Below, piece by piece: positions 2,572-45,983 of a DNA stretch of 64,000 nt. Made by a program: the position numbers and the translations under genes. The notes beneath the pieces were generated by a model. It was not told where the DNA came from. It did not search any database and worked only from the letters and a program-made list of their open reading frames with translations. The first letter of the stretch is position 1, and every line of letters starts with the position of its first letter. This DNA comes from Anaeromyxobacter sp. Fw109-5 (GTDB lineage Bacteria; Myxococcota; Myxococcia; Myxococcales; Anaeromyxobacteraceae), in contig NC_009675.1 of the NCBI RefSeq assembly GCF_000017505.1, positions 5,026,501-5,090,500 on the forward strand, written 5' to 3'.

Positions 2572-3284
2572 TCGAGGCTCCACGGCGCGCGGCGGGCGGC
2601 CACTGCGCGCGCGAGCAGGGCCTGGGCGGCCGCGGCGACCGAGTCGGCGAAGGCGCCCACCGCGGCGCGCTCGCAGGACGCCGGCGCCTCCATGGGCGCG
2701 CCGAACCAGTAGTCGAGCGGGACGGGGAGCGGGGCCGGCGGTAGCCACGCGCTGCGCCCCGGCCCGAGCGGCAGGCGGAGCGGGTGCTGCTGGTCGGCGC
2801 CCGCGATGGCGACCGGCACGACGGGCACGCGCGCCCGCGCCGCGAGGCGCGCATAGCCACGCCGGCCCGTCCAGTCGATCGCGTCCGCCGCCCCGTGGAG
2901 CTCGCGCGCACCGCCCGGGAAGAGGAGCACCGACTCGCCGCCGGCGAGCGCCGCCAGCGCGGCCTCCTCGGTCGCCTCGATGGCGCCGACGTGCCTGCGC
3001 ACCCAGCCGAGCGCCGGCAGGCGGTGCAGCGAGGTGCCGCGCTTCTCCATCGGCCGGAAGGGCACGCGCCCCGGGTCCCAGAACGACACGAGCCCGAGCA
3101 GGATCGTCTCGAGGTAGAGCCAGGTGCGCGGGTGCTTCGCGACGTAGACCACTGGCCGGTCCACCGGCACGGCGTCGAGGCCGTGCACCCGCGGTCGGTA
3201 GTACACCCGCAGCGCGCGCGCGAGCGGCGCGAGCACCGCTCGCTGCCGCCACGTCCGCGGAAAGCGCGCGCCGGGAGGGCTCAC
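2568..3284 (-). CDS. Lysophospholipid acyltransferase-family protein (first of pair)
   Basis: A 238-residue protein of the same superfamily as the next gene and partly similar to it (both have PIVP/PVVPVA-like and PGG-R-E motifs), so the pair may derive from a duplication. Motifs seen are YVAKHPRTWLYLE, FPGGARELHG and VPVVPVAIAGADQQ. The GTG start at 3284 is fixed by the GTGA overlap with the glycosyltransferase stop. Membrane-associated acyl transfer is expected. Mycobacterial phosphatidylinositol mannoside loci also place an acyltransferase next to a GT4 mannosyltransferase, which gives this locus a similar look. Confidence 0.78.
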   Translation of the reverse strand: MSPPGARFPRTWRQRAVLAPLARALRVYYRPRVHGLDAVPVDRPVVYVAKHPRTWLYLETILLGLVSFWDPGRVPFRPMEKRGTSLHRLPALGWVRRHVGAIEATEEAALAALAGGESVLLFPGGARELHGAADAIDWTGRRGYARLAARARVPVVPVAIAGADQQHPLRLPLGPGRSAWLPPAPLPVPLDYWFGAPMEAPASCERAAVGAFADSVAAAAQALLARAVAARRAPWSLE

Positions 3285-4408
3285 CGGGCGGCCTCGAGGA
3301 GGAGCGCGGCCCCGGGCTGCGCCTCGCGCGCCGCCGCCTGCGCGTAGACGAGGAGCACCCGCGCCGCGACGCGGCTCCAGCAGAGCGCGGCCGCGCGCGC
3401 CCTGCCTCGCTGGGCGAGCCGCTCCCGGAGCTCGGGGTCCGCCACCGCCCGCCAGATCGCCACCGCGAGGGCGCCCGGATCCCCCGCCGGCGTGAGCAGC
3501 GCGGCCCCGCGCGCGGCCTCGGCGTATCCCGGCAGATCGCTCGCCACCACCGGGCAGCCCGCCGCCATGGCCTCGACGAGCACCATGCCGAAGCTCTCGC
3601 CGCCGAGCGACGGGGCGCAGAACAGGTCGGCCGCGGCGTACGCCCGCGCGAGCGCCGCGTCGGAGAGCCGGCCGCGGAAGAAGACGCCCAGCCGTTCCGC
3701 GCGGCGGCGGAACCGCTCCGGCGCGCCGTCCCCCACCACGTCCACCTCGACGAGCCGCCCCTGCGCGCGCAGCAGCGCCACCGCGTCCAACAGCACCGAG
3801 AGCCCCTTCCGCGGCTCGCCGAAGCGGCCGACGAAGAGCACGCGCGGCGCGCCGGGTGCGCGCGCCCGCCCGCGCGTGGGGGCCGTGGAGAAGCGCGACA
3901 GGTCCACGCCGTTCGGGATCACCGCCGTGCGGCCCCGGTAGATGGCGCGCGAGAAGGCCTTCGCCGCGCGCGACACCGCGATGGCGGCGTCGATCCGGCC
4001 GAGCCCGGCGGCCGCGACGGCGCGGAGCGCGCGCTGCAGCGGCAGCTCTCGCTCGGCGCTGGCGTGGAAGGTCGCGACGACGGGGACGCGCGCGAGGCGC
4101 AGGGCGTGGCGCCCCGGCCCCGGGACGATGGGCTCGTGGACGTGCACCAGATCGAAGCGGCCGGCGGCGAGGTAGTCGCGCGTCGCGCGCGCGGACTGGA
4201 GGAGCCCGATGCGGGCCACCGAGCCGTTCGCCGGCACCGGCACGACGCCCGGGACGCCGTCGCAGCCTTCCGGCACCGCGCCGCTCGCCGGGCCGAGCAC
4301 GCGCGCGTGGTGCCCGGCCCCGCGCAGCGCACGCGCGAGCTCCTGCGCGTGGCGGTTCACGCCACCTTCGTGCGAGAGGTCGTAGGGCGTGACGATGCAG
4401 AGACGCAC
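3281..4408 (-). CDS. GT4-family glycosyltransferase, PimA-like
   Basis: A 375-residue GT-B glycosyltransferase. The N-terminal loop SHEGGVNRHAQELA binds the donor diphosphate region in this family. The C-terminal half has VLFVGRFGEPRKG and the E-x7-E motif GESFGMVLVEAMAAGCPVV typical of GT4 retaining enzymes that use nucleotide sugars. The layout resembles phosphatidylinositol alpha-mannosyltransferase PimA and related glycolipid enzymes. It is the first gene of a four-gene overlapping run with the acyltransferases and phosphoesterase, and inositol-1-phosphate synthase lies 162 bases upstream, which supports an inositol lipid acceptor. The sugar donor cannot be read from sequence. Confidence 0.82.
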   Translation of the reverse strand: MRLCIVTPYDLSHEGGVNRHAQELARALRGAGHHARVLGPASGAVPEGCDGVPGVVPVPANGSVARIGLLQSARATRDYLAAGRFDLVHVHEPIVPGPGRHALRLARVPVVATFHASAERELPLQRALRAVAAAGLGRIDAAIAVSRAAKAFSRAIYRGRTAVIPNGVDLSRFSTAPTRGRARAPGAPRVLFVGRFGEPRKGLSVLLDAVALLRAQGRLVEVDVVGDGAPERFRRRAERLGVFFRGRLSDAALARAYAAADLFCAPSLGGESFGMVLVEAMAAGCPVVASDLPGYAEAARGAALLTPAGDPGALAVAIWRAVADPELRERLAQRGRARAAALCWSRVAARVLLVYAQAAAREAQPGAALLLEAAR

Positions 4409-43284: not shown

Positions 43285-43749
43285 TCAAAGACCGAAGTGA
43301 GCCGGCGAGAGCCCCTTCCACGAGCAGTACTCGCGGAGCTCGCGCTTCACGAGGCCCCAGGTCATCGCGAGCAGCACGGCGTCGTCGGCCAAGCCGATGG
43401 GGAACAGCACGTCCGGAACGAGGTCCAGCGGCGAGAGCACGTACGCGACCGCCGCCGCCAGCGCGGCGAGCGACTTCCACGGCACCTTGCGGTAGGAGCC
43501 GTTCGCGTAGTCTCGCAGCACCATCCACAGGAGCCGCAGCTTCGCGCGGAACGCGCCGGGTGTGCGGCGCGCGTACCAGGGCGGCCGCCGCAGGAACCGG
43601 CGCGCCGCCGAGACGCGCTCGGGGAGGCTCTCCGGCGTGATGTCCCTCGCCTCGCGGGCGAGCTCGTTCGCCGCGGCCTCGCGACAGGAGAGGCAGTCCG
43701 CGCTCGAGCCGAGCGGGCGCGCGCAGGCGGGGCAGGTGCGGGTCGCCAT
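43285..43749 (-). CDS. DUF1232 (YkvA-like) membrane protein with zinc ribbon
   Basis: A 154-residue protein. The N-terminus carries a short CPAC...CLSC zinc ribbon (residues 6-22), and the C-terminal half has the DUF1232 signature AVAYVLSPLDLVPDVLFPIG and DDAVLLAMTWGLVKREL. The function of the family is unknown. TAGATT ends 6 bases before the ATG, a leaderless-type start, and no ribosome site is seen. Confidence 0.85.
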   Translation of the reverse strand: MATRTCPACARPLGSSADCLSCREAAANELAREARDITPESLPERVSAARRFLRRPPWYARRTPGAFRAKLRLLWMVLRDYANGSYRKVPWKSLAALAAAVAYVLSPLDLVPDVLFPIGLADDAVLLAMTWGLVKRELREYCSWKGLSPAHFGL

Positions 43750-43804: not shown

Positions 43805-44704
43805 TCAACGCGCGGCGCGCCGCGGGGTGCGCTCGCCGGGGGGCTCGATCGCAGTCACCTCGTGGAAGCGGCGGTAGTCGACGGCGTGGTCTCCCCGGGG
43901 CAGGACCTTCACGATGTCGCGGAAGCGCGCCTCCCAGCGCAGGTCCTCGGGCAGGTAGGTGCGGCGCGCGTGGATGACGCGGCTCAGGCCCTCGTCGAAG
44001 CCCGAGAGCGTCACGACCAGCTCCGCGTCCGCCGCCGCGAGCGACGCCTCGGTCTCGCCGGAGAGCGGGCTCTCCCGGGTGATGGGATGGACCGCCGTCC
44101 AGGCGTGCGAGAACAGCGCCGAGCCGCCGCGGGCGAGCGGCAGGTCGTGGGCGCGCCGCACCACCTCGCCGTCCTCGCCGGGCTCGTCGCGCACGAGCAT
44201 CACCGAGACCTTGGCGTCGAGGATGTGGCTCGTCCGCTCGTTCGCCATGCGGAACAGGAGGGCCCGCCCGCCCGCGTGCGGGCCGACGACGGCCACCCGG
44301 CTGAAGATGACGCGCGCCGGGATGCGCGAGTACTTGGCGAGGAGGATGCCGGCGCCGATGACCGCGAGGAGCCAGCGGACGAAGGTCTCGACGGCGGACA
44401 CGGCGCCGGCGGCGAGCCACCGTCCGGAGAGGGGCGCGGCGGGCGCGGGCGGCGCGTCCGCGGCGGCGAGCAGGGCGGGCAGCAGCGCCGTCCCCGGCGG
44501 CCACTCCGCCGCGAGCGCGAGGTGGGCGAGCCCGAAGAGCGCCTGCGTGCCGAAGAAGACGAGCGCGTAGATCGTGACGAGGCGGGACCAGCTCCCCGTG
44601 GCGAGCCGGTGATAGAGGTCCGCGAGCGGGCGGCGCCGGAGCCCGATGATCTTCACGCCCCGGCGGGCGTGCCCGAAGACCCGCGTCGAGCCGATGTCGG
44701 CCAT
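43805..44704 (-). CDS. KirBac-type inward-rectifier homologue lacking the selectivity filter
   Basis: A 299-residue protein. Residues 135-290 match the cytoplasmic domain of bacterial inward-rectifier potassium channels (SRVAVVGPHAGGRALLFRMA, WTAVHPITRESPL, YLPEDLRWEARFRDIV). An interfacial helix near 25-35 (PLADLYHRLATGSW), TM1 near 42-62 and TM2 near 103-124 are present. Between them, residues 65-98 are Ala/Pro-rich and have neither a pore helix nor the T-V/I-G-Y-G filter that all potassium channels need. It cannot be a normal potassium pore. It may be a channel subunit, a sensor or a decaying paralogue; the reading frame and cytoplasmic domain are intact. It follows mtnA by 53 bases. Confidence 0.82.
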   Translation of the reverse strand: MADIGSTRVFGHARRGVKIIGLRRRPLADLYHRLATGSWSRLVTIYALVFFGTQALFGLAHLALAAEWPPGTALLPALLAAADAPPAPAAPLSGRWLAAGAVSAVETFVRWLLAVIGAGILLAKYSRIPARVIFSRVAVVGPHAGGRALLFRMANERTSHILDAKVSVMLVRDEPGEDGEVVRRAHDLPLARGGSALFSHAWTAVHPITRESPLSGETEASLAAADAELVVTLSGFDEGLSRVIHARRTYLPEDLRWEARFRDIVKVLPRGDHAVDYRRFHEVTAIEPPGERTPRRAAR

Positions 44705-44757: not shown

Positions 44758-45767
<1,010 letters not shown>

Positions 45768-45771
<4 letters not shown>

Positions 45772-45983
45772 CGCGACTGCCTCCCCAGCCCCGCGAAGAG
45801 CCGCAGGGCGAAGTAAACCGCCGCCATCGCGGCGGCCGCGGCGGCGGAGAAGCGGCGCTCGATCGCGAGGACGCCCGCGACGATGGCGCAGCCCACGAGC
45901 GCGATGGCCAGGAACAGCCGTGTCGGCCCGCCGGCCGCGCCGGCGCCGGAGGGCCCTGCGCCCCAGCCTGCCCACCTCGCCAT
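45768..45983 (-). CDS. Small membrane protein
   Basis: A 71-residue protein with a Gly/Ala-rich N-terminus and two hydrophobic segments (about residues 23-40 and 47-64). It overlaps the mtnA start by four bases and is 80 bases downstream of gatB. No family is recognised. The overlap is the main evidence that it is real. Confidence 0.6.

Follow-up and report, generated by a model that had tools for sequence, protein, structure and literature searches.

A KirBac-type gene without a potassium filter beside mtnA in Anaeromyxobacter sp. Fw109-5

Described NirBac channels and their filter-bearing relatives

Kir-type channels with an altered pore loop have been described in several organisms, and those of Anaeromyxobacter are the closest to the gene considered here. 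Zubcevic 2015 reported three KirBac homologues with odd P-loops, namely, NirBac1.1 from A. dehalogenans 2CP-C, NirBac1.2 from Anaeromyxobacter sp. Fw109-5, and NirBac2.1 from Gemmatimonas, and re-sequenced the NirBac genes (PMC4607889). Purified NirBac1.1 and NirBac1.2 formed oligomers of about 120 kDa, consistent with tetramers, and by 22Na+ flux in liposomes neither was selective among monovalent cations; NirBac1.2 had a mild preference for Na+, K+, and Rb+ and did not pass Ca2+ (PMC4607889). Both were activated by POPG, and NirBac1.1 was inhibited by PIP2. The two proteins are >66% identical outside the loop, and their loops were termed unrelated, with their origin unknown, in that paper (PMC4607889). 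The filterless Kir-type channel itself is thus already known, having been described and tested in 2015 (PMC4607889). Our additions to that work are small and concern the mtnA locus, the proposed rewriting of the loop in place, an intermediate that joins the two loop types, and the marks left in TM2, none of which we found in the available text of the 2015 paper.

The remaining Kir-type proteins resemble NirBac1.2 less closely. NirBac2.1 (Gemmatimonas aurantiaca) was also classed as a NirBac for its odd filter, but its overall P-loop is kept and only the filter is altered, to TTGTD (PMC4607889), and it is therefore a different kind of change, probably independent of the NirBac 1.x proteins. The Trypanosoma brucei channel TbIRK, like NirBac1.2, lacks the signature TxGYG, but it has GGYVG in the filter place and is still K+-selective (PMC5429665), whereas NirBac1.2 has no filter-like motif left. 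KirBac3.1, the nearest solved structure, and KirBac1.1 share the slide helix, the two transmembrane helices, and the Kir cytoplasmic domain with NirBac1.2, but they have a K+ pore helix and TxGYG, both absent from it. A further difference lies at the inner constriction, where KirBac3.1 has the aromatic Y132, one of two constriction points in that channel (PMC8745282); NirBac1.2 is without it and carries R110-W111 in TM2.

The gene, its product, and its identification

The window analyzed here, a 64,000-nucleotide stretch of the Anaeromyxobacter sp. Fw109-5 genome, has a GC content of 73.7%. The open reading frame of interest (Table 1) starts with ATG, has no internal stop, and encodes 299 amino acids; its minus-strand orientation had not been given in the original prediction. 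The original prediction had described its product as an inward-rectifier homologue with a well-preserved KirBac cytoplasmic domain and two outer helices but an Ala/Pro-rich linker where the filter should be, and this description proved accurate on each point. The only Pfam match was IRK_C (E 1.8e-28), and the pore families (the IRK transmembrane domain and Ion_trans_2) gave no Pfam match in this protein, whereas filter-bearing homologues from sister genera are recognized by IRK_C and by both pore families. In a phmmer search, KirBac3.1 aligned to residues 17-284 (E 4e-42). An AlphaFold2 model (mean pLDDT 80.9, about 65 in the loop) contained both transmembrane helices and a beta-rich cytoplasmic domain, and its best structural matches were KirBac3.1 chains, with Z about 23 and an rmsd of 9 A across 247 residues.

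Table 1. Features of the NirBac gene and its neighbors, in positions of the window
Feature	Coordinates	Strand	Basis
DUF1232 gene, downstream neighbor conserved within the genus	43285..43749	minus	
NirBac CDS, 299 aa	43805..44704	minus	ORF call, Pfam, phmmer
Slide helix, residues 26-36	44597..44629	minus	AlphaFold2 model; aligned with KirBac3.1
TM1, residues 39-64	44513..44590	minus	AlphaFold2 model
Ala/Pro-rich stretch, residues 65-98, at the KirBac P-loop position	44411..44512	minus	Sequence, loop comparison
Short helix, residues 74-83, at the pore-helix place	44456..44485	minus	AlphaFold2, local pLDDT about 65
Coil, residues 84-93, at the TxGYG filter place	44426..44455	minus	Sequence, AlphaFold2 model
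TM2, residues 94-124	44333..44425	minus	AlphaFold2 model
R110-W111 in TM2	44372..44377	minus	Invariant in 8 NirBacs, found in 0/77 filter-bearing KirBac rows
L122 at the inner constriction, corresponding to KirBac3.1 Y132	44339..44341	minus	Alignment with KirBac3.1 and KirBac rows
Kir cytoplasmic domain IRK_C, residues 132-289	43838..44311	minus	Pfam
mtnA (methylthioribose-1-phosphate isomerase), conserved upstream neighbor	44758..45810 (start as searched)	minus	

No GYG occurs in the coding frame of the Ala/Pro-rich stretch. Nor does any of its five remaining frames contain a filter-like TxGYG, so the loop is not the product of a simple frameshift; a frameshift origin was likewise rejected for four NirBac loops, whose other frames hold no filter-like sequence. 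In the model of a NirBac1.1-type relative, a similar short helix lies at residues 75-83, and a second one (88-94) occupies the place where the 299-aa protein has a Pro-rich coil.

For identification, we compared the protein with the homologue L006, which we take to be NirBac1.1 of A. dehalogenans 2CP-C. The two were 67.9% identical before the loop and 67.8% after it, but 37% identical inside, and the loop of the putative NirBac1.1 is three residues longer; the two share locus, fold, and the absence of a filter. Because the identity of about 68% outside the loop agrees with the published >66%, we conclude that the open reading frame is almost certainly NirBac1.2 (YP_001381495). It agrees with the published protein in organism, architecture, missing TxGYG, and divergence from NirBac1.1, and we know of no difference between them. 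The protein thus has what marks the NirBac 1.x group, i.e., a Kir/KirBac architecture, a P-loop that lacks TxGYG and resembles no other filter, and high identity to NirBac1.1 outside the loop, and of the marks of a KirBac K+ channel it has the Kir cytoplasmic domain but neither the TxGYG filter nor the K+ pore helix.

Conservation of the missing filter and the case for a channel

Eight of the nine Anaeromyxobacter genomes hold a NirBac gene at this locus, and the filter is absent from all eight products (0/8). The seven other homologues are 59 to 92% identical to the 299-aa protein, and since they have the same filterless loop, the sequencing error in the pore region that the original prediction had allowed for can be dismissed. 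An isolated deletion, its other reservation, also fails, since the missing filter is shared across the genus. Nor has the family as a whole lost residues: the NirBac1.1-type loops of 53 residues equal most loops of sister-genus KirBacs in length, and the loop of the 299-aa protein is 3 shorter. Beyond the genus, we surveyed 195 Myxococcota genomes together with extra matches from a contig scan. A Kir domain was present in 54 of the 195 genomes, and T[IV]GYG was found in 64 distinct loops from these Kir-bearing genomes and the extra matches. Intact filterless loops in the survey belonged to Anaeromyxobacter NirBacs only, with every other intact homologue having T[IV]GYG, and the contig scan with two peptide patterns found no filterless loop outside Anaeromyxobacter. 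Three further rows that appeared filterless (L085, L093, and L060) were truncated or in shifted frames and were rejected as real losses.

A. oryzae Red232 (G007) was the sole genome seen carrying both types: besides the NirBac at its mtnA locus, it has a canonical TIGYG KirBac (L026, G007:C1:457222-458049), which groups with other myxobacterial KirBacs in the tree.

The NirBac gene is under purifying selection. In close pairs, dN/dS was 0.08 to 0.26 overall and 0 for TM2; ratios for long pairs (1.1 versus 1.2) were set aside because third positions are about 98% GC, which depresses dS. A decaying KirBac pseudogene or an assembly artifact could be suspected from the lost filter itself and from the loss of the gene in one Anaeromyxobacter genome. 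However, the frame is open in eight genomes under this selection, its conservation across the genus refutes decay, and others re-sequenced the gene and found the protein functional (PMC4607889). We regard this explanation as having next to no chance of being right, in agreement with the original view of an intact, conserved gene.

Three other roles that had been proposed for the protein, as a dominant-negative partner, a ligand sensor, or a protein scaffold, became unneeded in light of the published channel activity of NirBac1.2. A dominant-negative or regulatory subunit would join true K+ channel subunits to silence or modify them, for which the tetramerizing cytoplasmic domain is intact, and in A. 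oryzae, where NirBac and a canonical KirBac coexist, such heteromers could form. In the Fw109-5 genome, however, searches found neither a second Kir homologue (E<=0.01) nor an Ion_trans_2 match (E<=1; the control search was positive in 12/14 genomes), which leaves no obvious channel as a target, and the purified homotetramers conduct alone (PMC4607889), which makes this role very improbable. A role as a ligand sensor or membrane scaffold that does not conduct, with the Kir cytoplasmic domain retained for binding, seems to us just as improbable. By family match, conservation is indeed strongest in the cytoplasmic domain, and the loop is the least conserved part, but in close pairs TM2 (dN/dS 0) is under tighter constraint than the cytoplasmic domain, and the 2015 study measured cation flux together with activation by POPG and inhibition by PIP2 (PMC4607889). 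Since purified NirBac1.1 and NirBac1.2 tetramers carry 22Na+ flux, the protein is itself a channel.

We are highly confident that the gene encodes NirBac1.2, a tetrameric, inward-rectifier-type protein with two transmembrane helices. Replacement of the KirBac pore helix and of TxGYG gives a channel that does not select among monovalent cations, and an anionic phospholipid (phosphatidylglycerol) activates it. In the mechanism we propose, the short helix at residues 74-83 would stand in for the pore helix, and the Pro-rich coil, or the second short helix in NirBac1.1-type proteins, would line a wide mouth with no stack of ion-coordinating carbonyls, through which cations would pass largely hydrated. 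We infer this helix-and-coil mouth from models whose confidence in the loop is modest.

Origin of the filterless pore at the mtnA locus

The gene order in Anaeromyxobacter is gatA-gatB-mtnA-NirBac-DUF1232. In five sister-genus genomes (G010, G012, G013, G014, and G018), a TIGYG KirBac gene directly follows mtnA on the same strand, and match coordinates place mtnA and KirBac side by side in three more (G015, G021, and G023); in G011, the order is mtnA-DUF1232-KirBac. Because a filter-bearing KirBac occupies the position of NirBac in sister genera, filter loss in place is favored. The KirBac at the mtnA locus would then have lost its filter in a single event basal to the genus, and a short re-entrant helix, together with new contacts of TM2, would have held the pore from then on.

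DUF1232 also adjoins mtnA in sister-genus genomes that lack a Kir gene (G009, G016, and G017). In the one Anaeromyxobacter genome without NirBac (G004), mtnA and the DUF1232 gene are 305 bp apart, and the gap between them holds no trace of a channel gene. This clean loss (L043, G004:C126, about 3058 to 3364) left a gap of short GC-rich CACGGGNCACGG-like repeats.

In a tree built on the transmembrane and cytoplasmic domains, the NirBacs formed one clade (support 100/100) on a stem of 0.89 changes per site. They did not join the sister-genus KirBacs (0/1000 bootstraps), although this grouping was not rejected either (AU p 0.18). The KirBac at the mtnA locus could thus have been replaced by a horizontally acquired copy, a matter of origin that leaves the function unaffected, and the long stem together with the lack of tree support for the grouping speaks for such a transfer. 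Against it, the locus and its neighbors are the same as in sister genera, the best matches from outside the genus by E-value are mostly sister-genus KirBacs at 36 to 43% identity, the AU test is compatible with the grouping, and no filterless donor lineage was found in the Myxococcota sample or the two-pattern contig scan. On balance, we consider transfer unlikely.

The loop itself, bounded by the conserved F57 and E106, is 52 to 54 residues long in sister-genus KirBacs (mostly 53), 53 in NirBac1.1-type proteins, and 50 in NirBac1.2-type proteins. We scored NirBac loops against a gapless profile from 46 KirBac loops, with 2000 shuffles per test. In the four NirBac loops of 53 residues, both flanks (18 residues at the start and 15 at the end) resembled the profile (z 3.6-5.3, 0/2000 shuffles as high), whereas the 20-residue core, which covers the pore helix and filter, did not (z -0.3 to -0.8), so the rewritten part in these proteins is the core rather than the whole P-loop. 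The 50-residue NirBac1.2 loop was not significantly similar to KirBac loops when compared directly (z 0.9-1.6), and the link to KirBac is drawn through the 53-residue NirBacs. A direct comparison of loops 1.1 and 1.2 was no more than suggestive (z 2.8, 4/500 shuffles as high), and the loop of L005, from a metagenome-assembled Anaeromyxobacter, matched both 1.2 (z 6.7, 0/500) and 1.1 (z 3.8, 1/500). With this intermediate, chance similarity was rejected, and the most fitting reading is that the two loop types diverged from a single loop; on these comparisons, a statement of "no homology" between them looks too strong.

The 50-residue loop occurs in two lineages that are separate in the tree, the basal L005 (L005/L032) and L001-L003, which group with the 53-residue L004. 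The 3-residue change therefore occurred twice, or the loop recombined.

TM2 differs from that of KirBacs as well. R110, W111, and L122 are invariant in the 8 NirBacs and found in none of 77 filter-bearing KirBac rows, which have G/S/A at the R110 position, L/M/I/V/P (mostly L) at the W111 position, and F at the L122 position in 75/77. With L122 aligned to the constriction residue Y132 of KirBac3.1, this is a hint, though no proof, that the loss of the filter was accompanied by a change in the gate. NirBac-specific residues occupied 4/37 columns in TM2 versus 5/155 in the cytoplasmic domain, an enrichment that was not significant (Fisher p 0.07), so the TM2 marks are a lead, not a result.

Taken as a whole, we lean toward a pore rebuilt in place at one locus over the swapping in of a foreign P-loop ("modular design"), and hold this view with moderate confidence. 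About 20 core residues would have been rewritten at constant length, TM2 would have changed with them (R110, W111, and the aromatic inner-gate residue lost at 122), loops 1.1 and 1.2 would have diverged from one ancestral loop, and gate and filter would have changed together.

Our best guess for the role in vivo is a lipid-gated cation leak for turgor or membrane-potential control. The NirBacs show that the filter by which the superfamily is defined is not required for a tetrameric cation channel to assemble and to conduct. The mtnA locus offers a natural before-and-after pair, with a filter-bearing KirBac in sister genera and a filterless NirBac in Anaeromyxobacter, and the TM2 changes provide a short, testable list for how a pore survives the loss of its filter.
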